From Thermodesulfobacteriota bacterium (GTDB lineage Bacteria; Desulfobacterota; DSM-4660; Desulfatiglandales; Desulfatiglandaceae): 8,888 nt of DNA. The notes beneath the pieces were generated by a model. It searched no databases, had not been told where the DNA came from, and saw nothing but the letters and a program-made list of their open reading frames with translations. Each line of letters opens with the position of its first letter. Positions within the stretch are counted from its first letter, which is position 1. The stretch covers positions 1-8,888 of the forward strand of contig JANQDY010000248.1 in NCBI GenBank assembly GCA_028278625.1, given 5' to 3'. Positions 97-8,888 of this stretch are shown here, in pieces. The position numbers and the translations under genes are program-made.

Positions 97-110
97 GAAG
101 CCGCATCAGT

Positions 111-818
111 ATGGGCCGACTCGCTTCTCTTTCGATTCCATGCCCGCCACTGGAAACACAACTTGAATTCGAAAGAGCCGTTCTGGAGATTTCAGCTATT
201 GAGGAAATAATCAACCAGTCAAACAAAACAGCGAAAAATCTTTTAAGCAGCCTTTCGGCCCATGCCTTTTCCGGCCAACTCACCGCCGAATGGCGAGAAG
301 CCAACCGCGATAAACTCACTTTCGAAGCACGCCAGCGTGATGCCGCCCTCAGAGAAGCTGGCGGGGTTCGTGGAATTTCCAGCAAAGTTAGGATGCAGGC
401 GGAGATAGAAGCCATGTTGGAAGGGCCGACCGAAGGCATTTACTCCGACCTCAATCGCGAGCAGCGCGGCCTTTTGCGCGACATTAAACGCATGGTGGGG
501 GGTGTTCGATACGCCCGATATTTCACTGCCGAAAAATTGAGCCAATATATCTCCACCGGTCCAATGCGCCGCAATCCCCAAGGGGTGGAGGGGCATTTGG
601 CCGTCTTGGCTGCTCGTGGCCTGATAATTCCCGCAAGCAGGGAGGAACAAACCGAGGACACCGGGAAGTTTGTTTTCGGCAATGCCTATCGTCTGCCGCT
701 CCATGATTTCGAACCCGGCGAAAGCGAGGAAGGAGAGCCCCAAATCGGAGACCACGCGAGGACTCGTGAGTTGGAGCGGCTGGGCGCCCGCCTGGAAAAG
801 GAGAGCACACTAGCATGA
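111..818 (+). CDS. Type I restriction specificity subunit (HsdS), C-terminal fragment with winged-helix-like extension
   Basis: Remnant of a type I restriction-modification specificity subunit. The stretch reading SIPCPPLETQ (residues 8-17) followed by a long amphipathic helix to about residue 55 (ending LSAHAFSGQLTAEWRE) is the classic C-terminal conserved region of HsdS, which contacts HsdM. Both target-recognition domains are missing. HsdS-like sequence extends upstream of this ATG to about position 96, and the ATG has no Shine-Dalgarno sequence, so the start is an artefact of truncation by the upstream insertion sequence. Residues about 110-197 form a compact domain not found in standard HsdS: a helix (REQRGLLRDIKR), a YFTAEKL helix, a VEGHLAVLAARGLI helix and a final strand ending YRLP, resembling a winged helix. 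An acidic linker and a charged helix close the protein. The stop overlaps the next gene's start (ATGA). Probably inactive as a specificity subunit. Confidence 0.72.
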   Translation: MGRLASLSIPCPPLETQLEFERAVLEISAIEEIINQSNKTAKNLLSSLSAHAFSGQLTAEWREANRDKLTFEARQRDAALREAGGVRGISSKVRMQAEIEAMLEGPTEGIYSDLNREQRGLLRDIKRMVGGVRYARYFTAEKLSQYISTGPMRRNPQGVEGHLAVLAARGLIIPASREEQTEDTGKFVFGNAYRLPLHDFEPGESEEGEPQIGDHARTRELERLGARLEKESTLA

Positions 819-2755
819 GATTGCGCTACCTCCATCTCCCGCGTTGCGGCCCGCTTACCGATGCAAGAATCGTTTTCGGCCGGGAGGACCGCGTCACCAA
901 TGCATTGCAGTTGCCGCGGAGAGGTACGCTGAATTTCATGGTTGGCGTGAACGGAACCGGGAAGTCATCCTTGCTGCAAGCACTCTATCGTATCTTCCGT
1001 TCTTTGAAACTCCGCGAGAGGCCGTCGTTGCCCGTAACAATAGCGTGGGATCGAACGACGGGGAGCAAAGCCGTGACGGCACTCCTTCATGCCACCAACC
1101 GAAAAAACATGAACTCCTTTTTTGCCACGCTCGATCCGGTTCCGGTTTCCGCAAATCAAGCCGATTGGGAAGAGATTACGCTCGCCGCGAGCAGAAGAGA
1201 GGCGCATCCGTTGGTTTCGGATTTTGTAATGGTTACGGGCTCGGATGCATTTTCCAGTCCGTTCCTTTTTGCCCATTTACCAAAACGACTTATCGCCTAC
1301 ACATCAGGAGATGAGCAACCTTGGATGCAGCTCGAACACCCGATTTTTCACCCGGAAATTTTTGAAGAGGGACAATATCAGACCGAAGATGAACGCCCGC
1401 AGGGTTGGGACATGACCCAGGAATGGGAGAAAGAGCAAACAATTCGCATTTCCAATTTGCTTGCTCCTTCCACTTTAAAATCAAGCGGTGAGGCTAAAAC
1501 CTTCGAGAACTTAAGGCAGGAGTTGAGTCTACTGCAGACCATCCGGCGGAAAGCCCTATCAAACCGTGCGCTACGTAGCGAACTCCTGGACGGCTCCTAT
1601 TTCCATGTCGCTCCATCGGATCTCCGTTTTGCCGGTATAATCCTGGCGCTCTGGCAAACGGCAAAGGAACTCTCCGGTTGCCAGAATGAACGTCAACTGG
1701 AGGCCTTGCGGAATTCCATCATTCACCAGCCCAATTCAGATGAAAAACCGAGATATGCCCGGCGTGTCTTAAATGAGATTGACTGGCTTTGGCCAACTCA
1801 TTTGAGCTTCGTTTACCGCGATGCCGAGGACGAGGTAAGGCCACACCAGCATCAGGAGCTGTTATGCCTCGTGGCGCTTGCCGATGAAGTGATCGCCCAG
1901 CCGCTTGGACGTTGCCGGGCCGTCTTTTCACTTGGCCCCTCGGATCAAATCAACCTCACCCAAGAACTGAAAAATGCTTTGCCCTTCGGCCTTCCCAATA
2001 AGGGAATTGAGGCCATCGCCGAACGGGTTGATGGCTGCAATACCGGCGCCGAGGCCATTCTACGCGTGTTGAGCGCGGATCAGGATTTAGACTCCACGCC
2101 CATGGATGTCTTTTCCCGGCTTCGGGACTGGGAGCGCACAGGTCTTCTGGAGGAGATCACGCTCACGCTGAAGCGGCTACACCGTCCCGCATCCGACGAA
2201 AGCGATCCCTCCGAAGAAATCATTGTTACTTACGATCAGTTAAGCGACGGCGAAAAAATGCTCCTTTGTCGCATGGGCCTTTTCTTCCTCCTTCGCGGAC
2301 AAGAAGGTTCCCTTTTTCTGCTCGATGAACCGGAGACACACTTCAACGACATATGGAAGCGCGAGATCGTCGAAATGGTGGATATGGGCCTGTTGAAATC
2401 AACGGCGGCAAACGTTATTGTCGCAACGCACACGAGCATTGCACTTACCGACGCTTTCGCTGCTGAAGTCACCGTGTTGGACAAAAAGGCGGGTGAGATC
2501 ACGGCACGAAAAGTTAAAGGCGGTCTTTTCGGCACCGACCCCGGAGAAGTGTACATGAATCTCTTTGGCGCGGATAGCAGCATCGGACGTCGTTCGGTTC
2601 TTCTGCTGGAACAATTGTTGAAAACAGAATGGAAGGGCAGGGCAAATGAATTGGAGGAGATCCTGGAAATTCTAGGCAGTAGTTTCCACCGCGCCGAATT
2701 GAGAGCTGTTCTGAGGCAGCTTCGAGCAACAAGCCATGGCGCTCCACCCCGTTAA
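815..2755 (+). CDS. AAA/ABC-type ATPase, PtuA-like (Septu-type defence)
   Basis: A 646-residue ATPase of the SMC/RecF-like (OLD/PtuA) class, cytoplasmic and probably a sensor or regulator of its partner nuclease. An N-terminal strand pair leads to Walker A GVNGTGKSS (residues 44-52, K50). A long, mostly helical insertion with little recognisable similarity follows. The ABC signature LSDGE is at 476-480, Walker B LFLLDEPE at 500-507 (catalytic E505), and the switch histidine in VATHTS is H539. All nucleotide-hydrolysis motifs are intact. The C-terminal 90 residues are helical. The start is supported by AAGGAG at 798-803 and by the ATGA overlap with the hsdS fragment. It overlaps the HNH gene by 20 bases, so the three genes form one operon. 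Known Septu and retron-Ec78 systems pair an ATPase of this type with an HNH nuclease, forming a complex that cleaves nucleic acid during phage infection. The precise subfamily is uncertain. Confidence 0.8.
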   Translation: MRLRYLHLPRCGPLTDARIVFGREDRVTNALQLPRRGTLNFMVGVNGTGKSSLLQALYRIFRSLKLRERPSLPVTIAWDRTTGSKAVTALLHATNRKNMNSFFATLDPVPVSANQADWEEITLAASRREAHPLVSDFVMVTGSDAFSSPFLFAHLPKRLIAYTSGDEQPWMQLEHPIFHPEIFEEGQYQTEDERPQGWDMTQEWEKEQTIRISNLLAPSTLKSSGEAKTFENLRQELSLLQTIRRKALSNRALRSELLDGSYFHVAPSDLRFAGIILALWQTAKELSGCQNERQLEALRNSIIHQPNSDEKPRYARRVLNEIDWLWPTHLSFVYRDAEDEVRPHQHQELLCLVALADEVIAQPLGRCRAVFSLGPSDQINLTQELKNALPFGLPNKGIEAIAERVDGCNTGAEAILRVLSADQDLDSTPMDVFSRLRDWERTGLLEEITLTLKRLHRPASDESDPSEEIIVTYDQLSDGEKMLLCRMGLFFLLRGQEGSLFLLDEPETHFNDIWKREIVEMVDMGLLKSTAANVIVATHTSIALTDAFAAEVTVLDKKAGEITARKVKGGLFGTDPGEVYMNLFGADSSIGRRSVLLLEQLLKTEWKGRANELEEILEILGSSFHRAELRAVLRQLRATSHGAPPR

Positions 2756-3821
2756 ACTGCCGAAAAGCGCGGCCCGTCTTTTCAGAATCGTGGTGCTTCA
2801 GAAGCGGTTGCTCAAAGCGCTCACTGATCCCGCGATAGATGGCGACTCAGTGGATACAGGTTGGGTTCAGGAGGTGTGGCGTGTGGTTGATCCCGAATGG
2901 GTAAGGAAATTCTGCCTTGGCGGCAAGGAATCCGTGCTTCATCCACTTAGAACCATTTCTGATTCACCCCTCGTTGCCCGTCAGGAATTGTATCGTGAGT
3001 TCTGCCGCCAAAACAAAGTGCGAAAAATGCTCGATGCAGGCGGCAACTTTCGGGAGCTTAATGATCTGCCGGGATTTACCCCGCAACTAACAGACGCGAT
3101 AAAGAGATTCTTCGGACACTGCTACAAGCTTTTGAGCCACAGAAGAAGCCGAAGATGGCGCGGATATGAATTTAACGGCAATCGCTCCATCACGAACCGT
3201 GCCTATAAAGATGCCTTTTGCAGAGACTATCCGGCCAAAGTGGTATGCCCTTATTGTGATGGAGATATCGCAACACCCGAACTGGATCACTACCTTTGCA
3301 GGTCCGGCTTTCCGTTGATTGCCTGCTCACCGTGGAATCTCGTCCCCGTCTGTAAATCCTGCAATGACACAGTAACGGCGAAAGGAGATCGTCCCGCCAT
3401 AACGCTGGAACCGGTACGTTCCACGAACGACTGGCTCCACCCGTTCTTTCGGCCGGCTTCAATGCAGGTGCGAATCGAGCTGAGCGGCGCGCCTCAAGAC
3501 TCCGTACCACAATTGAATTCGCCTGATGCCGCCGAGCAAAAACGTGTCTCAAACCACATGGATCTTATCCGCACGCTGTCAAAAAGGTGGACAAACATTG
3601 CTGCGGCCCATTTCGACGTTCTGGTTCGACAGGTGAATCGAAAAGTGAGCGCTGACCATTCCGTGAAAAGCCTCGTCAGCACAAAGTTGGAAGATCATTT
3701 GGAGGCCCGCGGAAAGGAAGCGTCAGCCATGATCCATGCCGCAGTCTGTAGGGCAGTTCTCGACGAAAGACCGGAATACCTGGAGGAATTCTCCAATCCC
3801 AACGCCCCGACGCTTGAATAG
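2736..3821 (+). CDS. HNH endonuclease, PtuB-like partner of the upstream ATPase
   Basis: A 361-residue protein with a central zinc-binding HNH (treble-clef) nuclease core. CPYC (C171, C174) and CKSC (C206, C209) are the zinc ligands, DH (184-185) supplies the general base, and N201 in SPWNLVP sits at the middle HNH position. Spacing and the LDHY...NLVPVCKSCN pattern match PtuB-type and other ATPase-linked HNH nucleases. The N-terminal 165 residues are basic and helical, with a run of arginines near 136-142 that may contact nucleic acid. The C-terminal 110 residues (about 250-361) are helical and may dock to the ATPase. It is longer than typical PtuB proteins. The start lies inside the ATPase gene with only a weak GAGG upstream, so translation is probably coupled. 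The predicted role is nuclease effector of an ATPase-HNH anti-phage module. The HNH fold is secure; the system name is inference. Confidence 0.8.
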   Translation: MALHPVKLPKSAARLFRIVVLQKRLLKALTDPAIDGDSVDTGWVQEVWRVVDPEWVRKFCLGGKESVLHPLRTISDSPLVARQELYREFCRQNKVRKMLDAGGNFRELNDLPGFTPQLTDAIKRFFGHCYKLLSHRRSRRWRGYEFNGNRSITNRAYKDAFCRDYPAKVVCPYCDGDIATPELDHYLCRSGFPLIACSPWNLVPVCKSCNDTVTAKGDRPAITLEPVRSTNDWLHPFFRPASMQVRIELSGAPQDSVPQLNSPDAAEQKRVSNHMDLIRTLSKRWTNIAAAHFDVLVRQVNRKVSADHSVKSLVSTKLEDHLEARGKEASAMIHAAVCRAVLDERPEYLEEFSNPNAPTLE

Positions 3822-3878: not shown

Positions 3879-3920
3879 GAACAGGAGACCGCTAACCAAC
3901 GATTTGGCTACCACAATCAT
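3879..3920 (-). pseudogene. Vestigial PIN-domain toxin (5' end only)
   Basis: The antitoxin gene stop overlaps an ATG (ATGA, 3920-3917), the usual coupling in AbrB-PIN toxin-antitoxin pairs. The codons after it read MIVVAKSLVSGLLF, which resembles the first strand and helix of PIN toxins (typically V-x-D-T-N-V-L-V-S-G-L). The metal-binding Asp and the Thr-Asn are gone. After SGLLF the similarity stops, and the frame runs into unrelated sequence and then antisense to the HNH gene. I read this as a toxin truncated and decayed when the defence segment was joined here. The match is short, so the identity rests largely on the neighbouring antitoxin and the ATGA overlap. Confidence 0.45.
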
Positions 3921-4150
3921 TTTCTTCTGGAACGGGCCCACCGGACAGCCTCATCAACGCAGTCCTCGGAAAGGCCCGAGCGCTTCATTTTTGCCCTTAC
4001 TTTCTCAAAGTCGGTGTCATACACTCTTAAAGGCTTCAGCAAAATCCTTCCATCCGCATAATCCACATCAAAATACCGGACGTTCGGAAGTTTGGCCATA
4101 ACGCTTTTCGGAATGGTAATTTGATTCTTGGATGTGAGTTTTGCAGGCAT
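3917..4150 (-). CDS. AbrB/MazE/SpoVT-type DNA-binding antitoxin
   Basis: A small 77-residue protein. Residues 3-42 form an AbrB swapped-hairpin domain: AKLTSKNQITIPKSV, the hallmark start, then a short helix and the strand DGRILLKPL. The C-terminal helix (about 46-77, EDCVDEAVRWARSRRK) is the toxin-neutralising tail typical of antitoxins paired with PIN-domain toxins. Such proteins repress their own promoter as dimers and block the toxin nuclease. Its cognate toxin is reduced to a few codons at 3879-3920, so this looks like an orphan antitoxin. The start is supported by AAGGA about 9 bases upstream and by a strong promoter at 4184-4212. The gene faces the defence operon tail to tail. Confidence 0.85.
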   Translation of the reverse strand: MPAKLTSKNQITIPKSVMAKLPNVRYFDVDYADGRILLKPLRVYDTDFEKVRAKMKRSGLSEDCVDEAVRWARSRRK

Positions 4151-4195: not shown

Positions 4196-4212
4196 TCTGG
4201 TGGGGATGTCAA
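4184..4212 (-). promoter_or_regulatory. Sigma70-type promoter of the antitoxin gene
   Basis: On the minus strand a perfect TTGACA (4212-4207) is followed by a 17-base spacer and TACTAT (4189-4184). Transcription would begin near 4178, giving a leader of about 28 bases. The -35 box overlaps the stop codon of the upstream channel gene (4211-4209), so the antitoxin has its own promoter despite abutting that gene. Confidence 0.65.
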
Positions 4213-6203
4213 AGGTTTTGAACCGGTTTGGGGAGAGGGGATTTGTGGGGAGATTCAGCGCCTTCAGGTTTATCGCCAAAGTAAAGGGTCCGGGAGGGAA
4301 AGGCGAAGCTGAGATGGTTCAGTTCGAGTATTTCAGCGATCTTCGCCATGACATCCTGTTTCACCCGCAGCCATTCCTCCCAGTCGATGGATTTGCTGAA
4401 GCAGTACACCAGAATGTTGATGGAACTGTCACCATAATCATTCAGATAGACCAGAAGGGTTCTGCGAATGCCGAACTGATCATCCTTTTCCACCAGCCGG
4501 GACTTCACTTCCCTGCTCAGGTCAAACTCCGTCCGGTCATCGGCGATGTCCGGATGATCTCTCAGCATGGCCCGGATGTCATCCACGGCTTTCAGAATGT
4601 CTTTCATTTCAGAATCATAGGTGACGCCGATGCTCATCTTGATGCGTCGCCCCAACTGCCGCTTGTTCCAGTTCTTGATTTCCGTATTGGCCAGATACCC
4701 GTTGGGGGCAAAAACCATGGCATTATCAAAGGTTCGAATGCGGGTGGAGCGCAGGCCGATCTCCACCACGGTGCCCTGGTATTTCTTCGTCACAATCCAG
4801 TCCCCCTGACTGAAAGTGTTGTCAAAGATGATCTGGATGGAACCGAAGACGTTGGTTAAGGACTCACGGGCGGCCAGTGCAATGGCCAGCCCGCCGATAC
4901 CCAGCGATGCCAGAATGCCGCTGATGTTCACTCCCATGTTCCCCAGGATGATGAGCAGCGCGATGATGGAGATGAGTATCTTGGAGAGAACCAGGAAGAA
5001 ATTGATGATCTCTTTTCGCATGGTGGGGTATTTCTCAAGGAAAGAATCGCTGTAATAATAGACGAAGTGGTCGACCACCCGAAAAGAAGCCCAAACGGCA
5101 ATCAGGCTGTACAGACTGTCAAACACAAAGACGATTCCTTCGTTGCGCGGCGACGCGATGAAAATGAGTCTTTGAACGATATCCAGAGCAAAGAGGACGA
5201 GAAATACCCTGATCGGCCGGGATAGGGATTTACGAACAAGCTCATTGAATCGATTGACCCGTTTTTCGTTGTCAACAGCTTTCCTTCTCCCCAGTAAAAC
5301 GCCACTTAAACCTTTCAGAAGAAGTTCAGTGATTCTGAAAATGATGGTATAGCCCAGGAACAGAAGCAGAATAATCAGCAGTGAGGCCGCCAACTGGCCG
5401 ATGCTTATGGTTGTAGACTTCTTGACCAGATCCGCGGCCCCGGTCTTTCCAAAAATCCGGTTGATGATGGACACCAGGCGGTTGATTCCGAAAAAGTCGA
5501 TCAATGAATCCGTGGCCAAGACTTGGTCAACGTAATGATGAAAATACATGAGGACGGCGTTGTAGACATCCAACTCGTCTAAAAGTTTGTCATAGGCTTT
5601 CAGATAGATGAGGGCTTCGGGGCCTTTGTGATAACCCACTTTCAGGATGTCTTCAAAAACCATATGGTACAGACGGGGATTGAAAATCAGCTCCTGCCGA
5701 AAGTCCACCAGTATTTTATTGAAGGTTTCACGGGTATCGTACTCTTCAAGGGCTTTTTGAATGGCATCCACAAAGTCGACGAATTTGATGCGGAGTTCAA
5801 TGGATCGGAAATTCAGATCCGAAACCAGAAAGGCCACATATTTTTCCCGGGAAAAGGCGCTTTCATCTTTTGCCAGTCTGTCGTGGGCGGCTTTAAGCGC
5901 CTTGCGCTTTTCCCGCATGACCGACAGATCATAATCCACCAGGTCCCCGGCCATGAGTTTTTTAAGGAAACTCGCGATATTGAGGGCGCGTTGTTCCTTT
6001 AGGGCCGCTTCCAGCTTCTTTTGGGCTTCGGTTTTGGCCTCAAACACCGACAGCTCATAATCGATGTCATTGACGCGGGTCAATTCTTCGGTTTTGAAGG
6101 TGTGATAATCGATGTTATTGGCATAATCGAAGGCGTAAACCGGTGAAACAAGTAACAGCCAGGCAAGCAGTGTGGCGGCATAATAGGGCATGCGGTCTCT
6201 CAT
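4209..6203 (-). CDS. MscS-family mechanosensitive ion channel with large N-terminal domain
   Basis: A 664-residue inner-membrane channel that would release solutes under hypo-osmotic stress. A signal peptide (about 1-24, ending PVYA before FDY) is followed by a helical periplasmic domain (25-265) rich in charged coiled-coil-like sequence. Hydrophobic segments lie near 268-290, 330-350, 357-376 and 400-421. The pore helix is at 425-460 with the glycine-alanine pattern LASLGIGGLAIALAARESLTN, the hallmark of the MscS family. The beta domain follows (QGDWIV; GTVVEIGLRSTRIRTFDNA; PNGYLANTEIKNW) and then the alpha/beta C-terminal domain. Small MscS has about 290 residues, so this is an extended family member. 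The first ATG is preferred because it supplies two arginines to the signal peptide n-region; the second ATG (residue 5) has a slightly better GAGAG upstream. It has its own promoter at 6266-6293. Confidence 0.9.
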   Translation of the reverse strand: MRDRMPYYAATLLAWLLLVSPVYAFDYANNIDYHTFKTEELTRVNDIDYELSVFEAKTEAQKKLEAALKEQRALNIASFLKKLMAGDLVDYDLSVMREKRKALKAAHDRLAKDESAFSREKYVAFLVSDLNFRSIELRIKFVDFVDAIQKALEEYDTRETFNKILVDFRQELIFNPRLYHMVFEDILKVGYHKGPEALIYLKAYDKLLDELDVYNAVLMYFHHYVDQVLATDSLIDFFGINRLVSIINRIFGKTGAADLVKKSTTISIGQLAASLLIILLLFLGYTIIFRITELLLKGLSGVLLGRRKAVDNEKRVNRFNELVRKSLSRPIRVFLVLFALDIVQRLIFIASPRNEGIVFVFDSLYSLIAVWASFRVVDHFVYYYSDSFLEKYPTMRKEIINFFLVLSKILISIIALLIILGNMGVNISGILASLGIGGLAIALAARESLTNVFGSIQIIFDNTFSQGDWIVTKKYQGTVVEIGLRSTRIRTFDNAMVFAPNGYLANTEIKNWNKRQLGRRIKMSIGVTYDSEMKDILKAVDDIRAMLRDHPDIADDRTEFDLSREVKSRLVEKDDQFGIRRTLLVYLNDYGDSSINILVYCFSKSIDWEEWLRVKQDVMAKIAEILELNHLSFAFPSRTLYFGDKPEGAESPHKSPLPKPVQNL

Positions 6204-6265
6204 GGGCGTTTTTGAATTGGGGGTCTTTATGATGAGTCGATGAGAGATTCTGTTAACTCCTAGAA

Positions 6266-6293
6266 ATTAGACACTTCCATGCTTGTGTGTCAA
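6266..6293 (-). promoter_or_regulatory. Sigma70-type promoter of the MscS-family gene
   Basis: On the minus strand TTGACA (6293-6288) is followed by a 16-base spacer and TCTAAT (6271-6266), which matches five of six consensus bases. Transcription would start near 6259, giving a leader of roughly 55 bases before ATG 6203. Confidence 0.6.
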
Positions 6294-6353
6294 GAAGAAA
6301 CAAGCGGGAAGATGGCGACCTCATTGTTAAGCGAGTCTATTATGGGTGCGGTG

Positions 6354-6383
6354 TTGACAATTTTTGCTCGGTAAACATAGAAT
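6354..6383 (+). promoter_or_regulatory. Sigma70-type promoter of the nitronate monooxygenase-like gene
   Basis: TTGACA (6354-6359), an 18-base spacer and TAGAAT (6378-6383), which matches five of six consensus bases. Transcription would begin near 6390, leaving a leader of almost 130 bases before ATG 6518, longer than needed for translation alone. Confidence 0.6.
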
Positions 6384-6517
6384 CAGAAGGAGAGGGAATC
6401 GGATTTTTCGGCGCGGATCTGTTTTCTCAGGACCTCCTGAAATGTATGCGATCATTGCGCCAAAAGACCGGAAAAGCGTCGGATCGGCAATAAACCGCTC
6501 AAGGAAAGGACGAGCAT

Positions 6518-7537
6518 ATGCAAACCAATGGCATCTGTCATCTGTTGAATATTCGCTATCCCATTATTCAAGCTCCCATGAACTGGGTGAGCGGGGTGGC
6601 CCTGGCGGCGGCCGTGTCCAACGCCGGAGGGCTTGGAACCCTGGGGCCCAATGCGGGAGAAACGGAGAGAACCCGCGATCCCGACATAAGGGCGGAGGGT
6701 GCAAGAGGGCGCATCCGGGAGATCAAAAAGCTCACTGAAAAACCCTTTGCCTTGAATATCCCCGTGGGTTTTACGGACAAAGACCGGCACCATTCGCGGA
6801 AGCTGGTCCAGGTGGCCTTAGAAGAGGGCGTTTCCGTTGCCATCGTGTCCGTTGGAAGTCCCAGAGTATACACGGAGACCCTCAAAAATGCAGGGATTAC
6901 GGTTCTTCACGCCGTTTCCACAAAAGCCCATGCGCTAAATGCTGAAAAAGCGGGCGTGGATGCCGTTATTTGTGAAGGGTTTGAGGCCGGCGGACACAAA
7001 GGTTTTACGGAACTGACCACTTTCGTGCTGGTCCCCATGGTGGCTGATGCGGTGAGCCTGCCGGTGGTGGCGGGAGGCGGCATCGGAGATGTGCGCGGTG
7101 TGCTGGCAGCCCTGATGCTGGGGGCCGATGCCGCCTATATCGGGACCCGTTTTATGCTGGCCCAAGAGTCGGATGCGCACCGCCGGGTCAAGGAAACGGT
7201 GATTTTAGGGGATGACGTCTGCACCGTCAGCGTGCCCAAACGAAAAATGCTGGCCCGGGACTTCAGAAATCAGTTTGCCGAAACCTATCTGAATCTGCAT
7301 AAACAAGGCGCTTCCATGGATGAGCTGGAGATGTTTCAAAGAGAGCATTCCCAATATCATTCCCAGTTTAAAGGGCACGCCGATGATGCCGAGATCTGCT
7401 GCGGACAGGGGGCGAGCATTATCAACCGTATTGAGAGTGCCGGACAAATCATCGAAAAGATGGCCGCTCAGGCAGCGGCTCATATGGCGTCATTAACGGA
7501 AAAGGCGGGTCCGTTGATCACCGGCCGGGCTCCATGA
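6518..7537 (+). CDS. Nitronate monooxygenase / FabK-like FMN oxidoreductase
   Basis: A 339-residue TIM-barrel flavoprotein of the nitronate monooxygenase (2-nitropropane dioxygenase) and FabK superfamily, cytoplasmic and FMN-binding. Visible motifs in order: PIIQAPM (15-21), AVSNAGGLGTLGP (32-44), GFEAGGHKG (154-162, with H160 at the usual catalytic position), LPVVAGGGIGD (181-191, phosphate binding) and GADAAYIGTRF (202-212). Members oxidise nitronates or reduce enoyl-ACP; these motifs do not separate the two activities, and no fatty-acid synthesis genes are nearby. In an anaerobe it may act as a general NAD(P)H-flavin oxidoreductase. The start is supported by AAGGAAAGGA (6501-6510), 7 bases upstream, and homology begins within ten residues of it. 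Transcribed alone from the promoter at 6354. Confidence 0.85.
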   Translation: MQTNGICHLLNIRYPIIQAPMNWVSGVALAAAVSNAGGLGTLGPNAGETERTRDPDIRAEGARGRIREIKKLTEKPFALNIPVGFTDKDRHHSRKLVQVALEEGVSVAIVSVGSPRVYTETLKNAGITVLHAVSTKAHALNAEKAGVDAVICEGFEAGGHKGFTELTTFVLVPMVADAVSLPVVAGGGIGDVRGVLAALMLGADAAYIGTRFMLAQESDAHRRVKETVILGDDVCTVSVPKRKMLARDFRNQFAETYLNLHKQGASMDELEMFQREHSQYHSQFKGHADDAEICCGQGASIINRIESAGQIIEKMAAQAAAHMASLTEKAGPLITGRAP

Positions 7538-7546
7538 AGGCGTCTA

Positions 7547-7567
7547 TGGAGGGCTTCCGTTCCTCCA
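7547..7567. terminator. Possible hairpin between convergent genes
   Basis: TGGAGG (7547-7552) and CCTCCA (7562-7567) form a 6-bp stem with a 9-base loop, just after the oxidoreductase stop codon. A second compact inverted repeat, TGAGC-GG-GCTCA, lies at 7583-7594 just before the methyltransferase stop. Neither has a proper T run, so termination is plausible from position but weakly supported. Confidence 0.3.
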
Positions 7568-7594
7568 AAAGCATGGGTCCCGTGAGCGGGCTCA

Positions 7595-8155
7595 TTAAAG
7601 CCCTTTAACAAGCAGCGCCGATTTGGAGAGCAGGATTCTTGGCCCCTTTTCAATCTCAAAGCCTGCGCTTTCTGCCGTAAGGAGCGTCTCACTGAAAGCC
7701 GACCGCGACACATGAAACGGCGGCTCCACCACCAAAACCGACCCCCCAGGCTTAATAATGGCAGCGACCTCATTAAAAAAAAGCCCTTTGTCTGGAATTT
7801 CATGGACCACATAAAAGGCCAGCGCAAAATCGACCCTTTGAGATACACCGATGTGATTGTCGCTGCAATTCCTTAGGGTTATTCGGTCTTCCAGATCGGT
7901 ATTCTGTATTTTGCGCGCCAGCTTCCTCAGCATCCCTTCTTGCAGATCAACGGCAAATACCCGTCCCGATGGTCCCACCATTTCAGCCATGCTCAGGGTA
8001 AAAAAACCGGGGCCGCATCCAAAATCCATGACGGTCATACCGGTTTCAATATAGGGCCCCAGAATTTTGTCCGGATTCTGGATCCAGCGGCGAAGGAAAT
8101 TATCAAGGCTCCCGGCGATTTCTACCGGGCACACACGCGGTCGTTCAGTGGGCAT
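7595..8155 (-). CDS. Class I SAM-dependent methyltransferase
   Basis: A 186-residue Rossmann-fold methyltransferase. Motif I is VMDFGCGPGFFTL (42-54), which binds the S-adenosylmethionine carboxypropyl part. An acidic residue at the end of strand two (VFAVD, D70) would bind the ribose. Later come a motif II/III region (VDFALAFYVVHEI, 108-120) and IIKPGGSVLVVEP (133-145). It belongs to the large Methyltransf_11/25/31 type group; the substrate cannot be read from sequence. The start is supported by AAGGAG about 6 bases upstream (8160-8166). It lies 62 bases downstream of the MarR gene on the same strand, so the regulator may control it, though a possible terminator lies between them. It is convergent with the oxidoreductase gene. 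Confidence 0.85.
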   Translation of the reverse strand: MPTERPRVCPVEIAGSLDNFLRRWIQNPDKILGPYIETGMTVMDFGCGPGFFTLSMAEMVGPSGRVFAVDLQEGMLRKLARKIQNTDLEDRITLRNCSDNHIGVSQRVDFALAFYVVHEIPDKGLFFNEVAAIIKPGGSVLVVEPPFHVSRSAFSETLLTAESAGFEIEKGPRILLSKSALLVKGL

Positions 8156-8179
8156 AATGTCTCCTTAATATTAAAGAAG

Positions 8180-8194
8180 AGGTGTTTAATACCT
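8180..8194. promoter_or_regulatory. 15-bp dyad upstream of the methyltransferase, possible operator
   Basis: AGGTGTTTAATACCT is an inverted repeat with one mismatched pair, between the MarR and methyltransferase genes. Its size fits a site for a winged-helix dimer such as MarR. The perfect palindrome TTAATATTAA lies nearby at 8165-8174, next to the ribosome binding site. No function is demonstrated. Confidence 0.25.
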
Positions 8195-8207
8195 ATACGC
8201 TTGTCTC

Positions 8208-8240
8208 AAAAAAAAGACTAATCGGATGACAGCAGTCTTT
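8208..8240 (-). terminator. Possible intrinsic terminator at the end of the MarR gene
   Basis: On the minus strand AAAGACT (8240-8234) pairs perfectly with AGTCTTT (8219-8213) across a 14-base loop, and the T run continues to 8208. The stem includes part of the MarR stop codon. The stem is AT-rich and the loop long, so it would be a weak or partial terminator reducing read-through into the methyltransferase gene. Confidence 0.35.
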
Positions 8241-8664
8241 CGAAAAAAGTCTCTACTCTCAAAAGGAATTTTTCAATAACCGCGGCTTTCTCGCGGTCGA
8301 GATTCAGGAAATATTCCTTAAAGCCGCCATCCATGGTTTCGTGCCAGTGTTTGTGGGCATAATAGGCAACCTTTCCCTTGGAGGTGAGCGTGACAATGGA
8401 TCGGGATGAGTTTTCCGGATCAACATGCTTCCTGATGAGATCCTTCTTCTCGAGCTGTTTGAAACGCTGGGAAACGGCCCCCTTGGTCACTCCAAAGCGC
8501 CTGGCGATGTCCGTTACACCGGAGTTTTCGTGATCTCCCACGAGCTCAATAAGGTGAATCTCGACCCCTGTCAGCATGGTGTCAGTGCCGTATTTTCGCG
8601 GTTCGGTCTCGAGCCTCCGCGCCAGTTGAATCACGTTATTGAATCTTTTCTTAATGTTCTCCAT
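8218..8664 (-). CDS. MarR-family transcriptional regulator
   Basis: A 148-residue winged-helix dimer of the MarR family, a ligand- or stress-responsive DNA-binding regulator. N-terminal dimerisation helix about 1-20; helix-turn-helix at 51-79 (TDIARRFGVTKGAVSQRFKQLEKKDLI, in which the GVTKGAVSQR recognition helix is typical of the family); wing at 80-95 with D82 and R88 around the beta hairpin and the usual VTLTSKGK ending; C-terminal dimerisation helices 98-148. Length is normal for the family. It is likely autoregulated and may control the methyltransferase gene downstream and the riboswitch-bearing transcript diverging from it. No Shine-Dalgarno sequence precedes the ATG, and the predicted transcription start is almost at the ATG. 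The ligand is unknown. Confidence 0.9.
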   Translation of the reverse strand: MENIKKRFNNVIQLARRLETEPRKYGTDTMLTGVEIHLIELVGDHENSGVTDIARRFGVTKGAVSQRFKQLEKKDLIRKHVDPENSSRSIVTLTSKGKVAYYAHKHWHETMDGGFKEYFLNLDREKAAVIEKFLLRVETFFERLLSSD

Positions 8665-8739: not shown

Positions 8740-8767
8740 TTGACAGGTGCAGTTCTTATGAAATAAG
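8740..8767 (+). promoter_or_regulatory. Promoter for the B12-riboswitch transcript
   Basis: TTGACA (8740-8745), a 16-base spacer and AATAAG (8762-8767), which matches four of six consensus bases. Transcription would start near 8774, immediately before the conserved riboswitch sequence, which supports the assignment. The -10 lies within the right arm of a perfect inverted repeat. Confidence 0.45.
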
Positions 8768-8772
8768 AACTG
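8750..8772. repeat. Perfect 9-bp inverted repeat, candidate operator
   Basis: CAGTTCTTA (8750-8758) and TAAGAACTG (8764-8772) are exact reverse complements separated by five bases. The repeat covers the spacer and -10 of the promoter feeding the cobalamin riboswitch. It has no T run after it, so it is not an intrinsic terminator, and it precedes the expected start site, so it would act as DNA. An operator for a dimeric regulator, possibly the adjacent MarR protein, is the simplest reading. Confidence 0.5.
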
Positions 8773-8774
8773 AT

Positions 8775-8888
8775 CCAAGGTGCCCTTGGGGCTTAATAGG
8801 GAATCCCGTGGAAATCGGGAGTGGTCCCGCCGCTGTGATCGGGGACGAAATCCGCGAAATGCCACTGTTTCGAAAGATCGGAATGGGA
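8775..8888 (+). promoter_or_regulatory. Cobalamin (B12) riboswitch, 3' end outside window
   Basis: The order of conserved elements matches the cobalamin riboswitch: GGTGCC (8779-8784); GCTTAATAGGGAA (8791-8803); a CCCG/CGGG stem around GTGGAAAT (8805-8819); the core GGTCCCGCCGCTGTGA (8823-8838); GGGGACGAAA (8841-8850); and a B12-box-like GCCACTG (8861-8867). In known examples, adenosylcobalamin binding folds the mRNA leader to stop transcription or hide the ribosome binding site of B12 synthesis, uptake or B12-independent isoenzyme genes. The closing stem, the expression platform and the regulated gene lie beyond the right edge, so which it controls cannot be seen. Confidence 0.88.

Follow-up and report, generated by a model that had tools for sequence, protein, structure and literature searches.

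In the Septu system and in retron-Ec78 and retron-Eco7, adjacent genes encode an ABC-type ATPase (PtuA) and an HNH nuclease (PtuB). Two PtuAB systems have been linked to tRNA: that of retron-Eco7 depletes tRNA-Tyr (PMC11555353), and Septu EcB88 cuts the variable loop of tRNA-Tyr, for which its ATPase and HNH motifs are both required (PMC13096335). ABC-ATPase effectors are also tied to type I restriction-modification. PrrC, in the EcoprrI locus, is silenced by the linked type I enzyme and switched on by phage Stp (PMC2610378), and PARIS, which has a related ABC ATPase, senses the anti-restriction protein Ocr and degrades tRNA-Lys (PMC12707154). Dyads of an OLD-ABC ATPase and an HNH protein near BREX are mentioned in a 2026 BREX paper (PMC12839542), which cites an earlier ABC-ATPase classification, and PDC-M01, a PADLOC candidate, is in print in two papers as an unpublished system that partly overlaps Septu calls. 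The accessible text mentions no type I link for PDC-M01, and that of the 2021 PADLOC paper gives Septu with reverse transcriptase and nothing on hsdS beside Septu. Here, we analyze an 8,888-nucleotide stretch of DNA from a Thermodesulfobacteriota bacterium (contig JANQDY010000248.1; hereafter the window), in which genes for a PtuA-like ATPase and a PtuB-like HNH nuclease follow the end of hsdS, the gene for the specificity subunit of a type I restriction enzyme. Comparison of gene neighborhoods identifies a widespread composite operon of this kind, (hsdR)-hsdM-hsdS-ATPase-HNH, in which the restriction gene hsdR is optional. Septu and restriction enzymes are usually regarded as distinct defenses; a conserved operon with HsdS-ATPase fusions would show that the two can form a single machine and would offer a direct route to ask what triggers PtuAB-type effectors. 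No description of such operons or of HsdS-ATPase fusions was found in the accessible parts of the literature searched, most subscription papers lying outside that search.

The window contains the following features of the system:

1 to 96, + strand: 3′ end of an insertion element of the IS630 family (C-terminal part of the transposase at 3-83, then a stop codon at 84-86)
105 to 818, + strand: hsdS remnant, consisting of the last conserved region and C-terminal tail, with no target-recognition domains (from alignment to the HsdS of locus L054)
111 to 818, + strand: open reading frame (ORF) of the hsdS remnant (residues 2-57 match PADLOC Specificity_I with E 1.4e-8)
291 to 818, + strand: HsdS C-terminal tail, 175 amino acids, a proposed ATPase docking segment
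815 to 2755, + strand: intact ORF of 646 amino acids, PtuA-like ABC-type ATPase
944 to 970, + strand: Walker A motif, GVNGTGKSS
2240 to 2254, + strand: ABC signature, LSDGE
2312 to 2350, + strand: Walker B motif, LFLLDEPETHFND
2736 to 3821, + strand: intact ORF of 361 amino acids, PtuB-like zinc HNH nuclease
3246 to 3365, + strand: HNH core, CxxC...LDHY...PWNLVPVCxxCN (CxxC 3246-3257, LDHY 3282-3293, N...CxxC 3330-3365)

The three ORFs run head to tail, with a 4-base overlap between hsdS and the ATPase gene (ATGA, 815-818) and a 20-base overlap between the ATPase and HNH genes (2736-2755). Both overlaps had been described in the original prediction, which was made from the sequence of the window alone, and the coordinates confirm them. 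The HsdS C-terminus, the complete Walker A, signature and Walker B motifs and the zinc HNH nuclease that it reported were likewise all located. Its statement that the pair is fused to HsdS is wrong for this copy, where the genes merely overlap; true HsdS-ATPase fusions exist elsewhere. The assignment to a type I locus is correct as to the HsdS C-terminus, but the gene is a 5′-truncated remnant from which both recognition domains are gone, and neither hsdR nor hsdM is among the ORFs of the window, which begins inside the insertion element. By sequence similarity, the ATPase and HNH ORFs are more than chance reading frames because over 100 listed relatives of each cover about nine-tenths or more of the query. 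The protein searches returned 360 matches for the ATPase and 146 for the HNH protein, and most of the 120 listed in each case, the window's own among them, cover at least nine-tenths of the query. Several of the listed proteins lie on contigs of shared length, such as 6009, 21077, 12742, and 7415.

The sequence motifs of both proteins are well conserved. Key Walker and signature residues are invariant in an alignment of 32 ATPases that includes the window (in Walker A: G, N, G, G, K, and S). The family scans and set A3 exclude three loci with broken ATPases (L002, L004, and L011), and in the scanned set of 45 ATPases, window included, all three motifs were recovered by strict patterns in 37 and S-x-G-E and DEP are invariant throughout. 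The alignment of 29 HNH proteins, again with the window, has four Cys residues, D184, H185, N201, and N210 invariant, and the zinc/HNH motif is kept in 44 of 47 HNH proteins (46 from the loci described below, plus the window). Structure comparison gave the predicted HNH structure a PtuB-like fold, and the top Foldseek matches of the ATPase model are retron and Septu PtuA proteins. PADLOC PtuA models PDLC00293 and PDLC00294 match all 45 ATPases and PDLC00271 matches 38 of them; the window ATPase scores 102 bits against PADLOC PtuA. The family nevertheless differs from Septu. Its ATPases are split from 27 control PtuA proteins by a branch with 97% support in the Shimodaira-Hasegawa-like approximate likelihood ratio test (SH-aLRT), in a quick tree whose controls come from one PADLOC PtuA model and one bacterial order; it is linked to hsdM and hsdS, as described below; and the window HNH protein has 361 residues, in comparison to 179-234 for PtuB chains. 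A type I-A retron was rejected for the window, where no reverse transcriptase occurs among the nine translations scanned and Rfam at its gathering threshold returned a cobalamin riboswitch and no msr-msd RNA; the DNA to the left of the insertion element lies beyond the window.

The best named family for the window ATPase is NCBIfam TIGR04435, "restriction system-associated AAA family ATPase," which matches 45/45 scanned ATPases with E 1e-10 or better. The window ATPase scores 113.3 bits, below the curated cut-off of 300, and it occupies the other main branch of the tree from the name-bearing proteins of L046 and L048. The plasmid records that bear this name show hsdM, hsdS, the ATPase gene, and a gene for an unknown protein; hsdR accompanies them in L046 but not in L048. 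The restriction linkage in the name agrees with the hsdS remnant of the window and with its relatives, and the name is silent on the HNH partner and on function. As an association, the composite system suggested in the original prediction is not new, having been partly known already through the family name; neither the phrase "restriction system-associated AAA" nor TIGR04435 was found in the literature search. The physical link to HsdS makes the association unusually testable. Among other described systems, PDC-M01 is also a two-gene ATPase and HNH arrangement, and PDC-M01B is the best match of the window HNH protein (65.8 bits), but PDC-M01A matches the window ATPase at only 39.9 bits, and neither model has a stated cut-off. 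The likeness to PrrC-EcoprrI is that of an ABC-ATPase effector in a type I locus, evident in the relatives (the window holds the hsdS remnant only). PrrC, however, is one protein with an anticodon-nuclease domain, whereas here there are two proteins and an HNH nuclease; the Pfam scan of the window ATPase gave ATPase-type matches plus one chance-level match and no anticodon-nuclease domain. The AriA models of PARIS match the window ATPase with E 7e-15, but the partner, AriB, is described in the accessible text as a TOPRIM nuclease, in contrast to the PtuB-fold HNH protein found here.

Relatives were gathered through ATPase similarity alone, yielding 47 loci (37 genome contigs, 2 viral contigs, 6 plasmids, and 2 whole genomes) in which genes were identified by matching each ORF to reference proteins (HsdR, HsdM, HsdS, ATPase, and HNH) encoded on annotated plasmids. 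This is a partial sample of a set of at least 47, the genome-contig scan having been queried with two ATPase peptides. hsdS is present in 44/47 loci (as part of a fusion in L018 and as a broken or cut gene in L002, L005, and L011), hsdM in 42/47, and the HNH gene in 46/47 (L036 ends in the ATPase gene). Contig limits apply to L006 and L008, which start at the ATPase gene and have neither hsdS nor hsdM, and to L005 and L028, cut before hsdM; where contigs allow a verdict, the Rhizobium plasmid locus L050 is the sole one without type I genes. Most loci have hsdM before hsdS, and in L018, L026, L029, and L049 it lies 3′ of the HNH gene. The hsdS profile was built from the same loci and was therefore run leave-one-out, placing hsdS within 1.5 kb of the ATPase gene in 37/47 loci; in seven of the other ten, it lies farther upstream with extra coding sequence between. 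The spacing is -28 to +54 bases, on the same strand, in 33 of the 37 adjacent loci, the exceptions being L004, L018, L022, and L054 (-4 in L054 with an alternative start). hsdR was found in 30/47 loci and is absent nearby in 10 of the 40 that can be resolved, so the conserved core consists of hsdM, hsdS, ATPase, and HNH genes. The hosts span at least eight phyla (Pseudomonadota, Thermodesulfobacteriota, Verrucomicrobiota, Chloroflexota, Bacteroidota, Cyanobacteriota, Melainabacteria, and Bacillota), and the family is rare per genome, occurring in 2/345 Desulfobacterota and 1/337 Verrucomicrobiota genomes, the two seed genomes counted. As a control, 30 Enterobacterales loci were taken with PADLOC PtuA model PDLC00271; of these, one (L056) has hsdS no farther than 1.5 kb away and one (L065) has hsdM; this control may not represent all canonical PtuA, its model also matching type I-linked ATPases, and our HNH profile detected an HNH gene beside only 13/30 of the control PtuA genes.

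These results bear out the predicted conservation of the hsdS-ATPase-HNH arrangement in other genomes. The pair does not usually occur without type I genes, and the hsdS neighborhood is not unique to this locus. The expected hsdR-hsdM-hsdS genes upstream were mostly found in that order with tight junctions, apart from hsdR, which is missing from a quarter of the resolvable loci. Overall, the original interpretation is partly supported. Outside the 47 loci, a Vibrio plasmid relative (L086) has hsdM, hsdS, the ATPase gene, and a gene for a small protein, and 6 of 8 plasmid records examined from a total of 11 (H4, H7, and H8 left out) are linked to type I genes. Relatives on two Rhizobium plasmids (L050 and, outside the 47 loci, L087) have no type I genes and form a long tree branch of their own, and a DUF2026 gene follows the pair. 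Judged segment by segment (85-86%), the locus most similar to the window ATPase is in delta proteobacterium NaphS2 (L002:4703-11799); it too is wrecked, with hsdR split, hsdS fragmentary, the ATPase gene partial, and the HNH gene present. No match was obtained in 50,697 phage records, and two relatives were found on viral contigs.

Fusions are the strongest sign that HsdS and the ATPase work together. In L018, a single 990-amino acid ORF (7529-10501) encodes HsdS, with two Methylase_S stretches, followed by the ATPase (AAA_21); the HNH gene and then hsdM lie 3′ of it. A search with the ATPase half of this protein gave 1502 matches, and 69 of the 120 listed carry both Methylase_S (PF01420) and AAA_21 (PF13304), a proportion that is not a frequency because the query is itself fused and the length limits favor long proteins. 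These single-chain HsdS-ATPase proteins (P0241-P0312) have 737 to 1146 amino acids, mostly ~950-1150, and the seven fused ATPases placed in the tree form one clade. The length of HsdS also bears on mechanism. The median is 526 amino acids where HsdS adjoins the ATPase (n = 33) vs. 401 in the seven loci with an intervening gene, which represent two lineages (Mann-Whitney p 9e-5), in a comparison whose lineages are not independent and which excludes the broken or cut L002, L005, and L011 and the fused L018; start codons were re-chosen where the HsdS frame ran more than 60 bases into hsdM. Background HsdS frames of at least 350 amino acids in Desulfobacterota have a median of 429 (n = 102), and 32/33 ATPase-adjoining proteins reach 463 amino acids, in comparison to 21/102 in this background, which consists of listed matches only, as stop-to-stop frames from one phylum. 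Some HsdS families (type IB) have long C-termini regardless. The 175-amino acid tail of the window was found in 1/297 Desulfobacterota genomes, namely G298, which also has the full operon and an intact pair; Methylase_S itself was found in 93/198. The gene that intervenes between hsdS and the ATPase gene in L010, L012, L015, L020, L037, L043, and L047 encodes 621-689 amino acids (two frames in L020), and HsdS in these loci is short (365-431 amino acids). Of the five such genes scanned, those of L037 and L047 are N6-methylase-like, and those of L010, L012, and L043 are hardly recognizable.

Operon conservation, fusions, long HsdS proteins, tail specificity within one phylum, the HNH fold, and the catalytic motifs are all observed; tethering, latency, the trigger, and the substrate are inferred. 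We give roughly an even chance to a Septu-like effector that is tethered to HsdS, fires on the state of the HsdM-HsdS complex, and aborts infection. The PtuA-like ATPase, carrying the PtuB-like HNH protein, would be attached to HsdS by the tail, by direct fusion, or perhaps through the intervening methylase-like protein, and the HsdM-HsdS complex would hold the module inactive on HsdS. Infection would perturb the complex, through an anti-restriction protein or through unmodified phage DNA occupying it, and an ATP-dependent rearrangement would then free the HNH nuclease. The freed nuclease would abort the infection by cutting a nucleic acid that the cell cannot do without; from the two PtuAB systems studied, tRNA is the most likely target. 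PrrC, PARIS, retron-Eco7, and Septu EcB88 provide precedents, and a silent abortive effector on the HsdM-HsdS complex is therefore preferred.

Several observations weigh against this proposal. The Foldseek TM-scores of the ATPase are low (~0.25-0.3), its model is moderately confident (pLDDT, the predicted local distance difference test, 77), and Rad50 and AriA equal PtuA in their VIA Z to it (11.8). Genome G002, which holds the wrecked copy L002, lacks the tail in the search that found it in G298, and the two Rhizobium relatives have no type I genes nearby. With HsdS as the sole brake, a toxic effector would be expected to be set free once HsdS is lost; both effector frames in the window are nevertheless open, although the genes there may not be expressed. 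As to the substrate, the accessible text of PMC11555353 describes retron-Eco4 as likely not tRNA-targeting, refers to a Septu system for which action on nicked DNA was reported, and leaves direct tRNA cutting by PtuAB open. Finally, as hsdR is absent nearby in 10 of the 40 resolvable loci, the sensing of blocked restriction cannot hinge on an HsdR encoded alongside, and such loci speak against HsdR alone being what is sensed.

The loci without hsdR also favor the main alternative. It holds that the HsdM-HsdS complex is a DNA reader that loads the ATPase-HNH module at unmethylated sites, where the HNH nuclease cuts that same DNA and supplements or replaces HsdR. hsdR is lacking despite ~5 kb or more of flank in L007, L011, L013, L014, L024, L026, L029, L037, L048, and L049, of which L011 is broken in several genes; L005, L006, L008, L023, L028, and L035 allow no verdict, and type I genes are altogether absent from L050. 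Seven hosts of such loci were searched whole, and the HsdR profile A4 matched in 5/7 and PF04313 in 7/7. In G007, G010, G1487, G1490, and G1491, a PF04313 or A4 match lies in a frame of 779-1110 amino acids, so HsdR may act in trans from elsewhere in these five genomes, which counts against a restriction role for the pair. The other two support it: in the whole-genome search of G1488 and G1489, whose completeness was not given, no HsdR-profile or PF04313 match falls in a frame above 515 amino acids, and thus none is of HsdR length. G1488 has no A4 match, G1489 has A4 frames of 514-515 amino acids only, and the PF04313 frames are of 171-355 amino acids. HsdS-ATPase fusions would suit guided loading, and L007, with no hsdR nearby, is counted in its favor as well: its HsdM (6641-8350) has a degenerate motif IV, SDLPH for ANPPF. 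Conversely, a restriction nuclease is usually there already, given that hsdR is in most loci, and the two PtuAB relatives described in the accessible literature act on tRNA. Guided cutting of unmodified DNA is consequently possible but less probable than the abortive effector. Sequence alone does not discriminate between these two models, or between the response to blocked restriction and the guidance by the specificity complex suggested in the original prediction; the loci without hsdR are where the two models separate. The place to look for contact between HsdS and the ATPase is given by the tail and the fusions. More speculatively, the operon could couple an HsdM-HsdS reader to a Septu-type killing arm tethered to HsdS by tail or fusion, with HsdR optional or absent; at least one locus, with an apparently dead methylase, would then be a pure recognition-and-strike machine, a tentative and rather doubtful idea.

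It is improbable that the pair serves chiefly to regulate or assemble the type I enzyme, for example by tuning its activity or in self-protection, and is not an antiviral effector. Tight coupling to hsdS and hsdM and the presence of hsdR alongside in 30 loci speak for such a role, but the retained zinc/HNH residues and the PtuB fold indicate that the pair acts as a nuclease. An independent Septu system that lies by chance beside type I genes in a defense island was rejected as very improbable: defense genes do gather in islands and the two Rhizobium relatives lack type I genes, but the shared strand, the mostly constant order and narrow spacing across at least eight phyla, the fusions, the control PtuA loci, and the tail specificity all speak against it.

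The window copy itself is a relic. Positions 3-86 encode KGAKVNWQFRTEDARIKLKRLYPTLDV and a stop codon, the C-terminus of an IS630-family transposase (best match 91% over 22 residues, E 1e-5). A tblastn search of plasmids with this 27-amino acid end (E limit 10) matched 144 records, 4 of them at ≥80% identity, and several of the best matches (E 1e-5 to 2e-5) are annotated as IS630 family transposases. IS630 elements prefer TA targets, and the TA dinucleotide at 95-96 may mark the element's edge. HsdS homology begins near 105 and aligns with residues 345-580 of the intact 581-amino acid HsdS of L054 (58% identity); the ATG at 111 lies inside the original coding sequence. What remains is the last ~236 of ~581 residues, with ~344 residues and both recognition domains missing; a plasmid search with the remnant gave 4 weak matches, none spanning 80% of it. 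The insertion element removed the recognition part of hsdS and left the ATPase and HNH frames open. Because hsdS is broken, the composite system is probably non-functional in this copy. The window most probably begins at the element because assemblies break at repeated insertion elements. In a comparison directed at relaxed selection on this copy, the window proteins depart at 3/86 otherwise invariant ATPase columns and 3/58 HNH columns, on the high side among the 32 ATPases and 29 HNH proteins but not extreme. Scans for sigma-70 promoter sites (3 vs. 2.3 in shuffles) and terminators (7 vs. 5.9) gave about the same numbers as shuffled sequence.

Directly after the HNH gene, a lone AbrB/MazE-like antitoxin ORF lies on the - strand at 3917-4150 (a weak Pfam match, below cut-off). 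No toxin partner was recognized, and a 25-amino acid query for a PIN-toxin remnant matched nothing in plasmids; arrival of the cassette may have cost the ORF a partner. The remainder of the window (4209-8664) carries ordinary genes, for an MscS-type channel, a nitronate monooxygenase, a methyltransferase, and a MarR regulator, followed by one further feature:

8761 to 8888, + strand: cobalamin riboswitch aptamer (Rfam, 66 bits), cut by the end of the window

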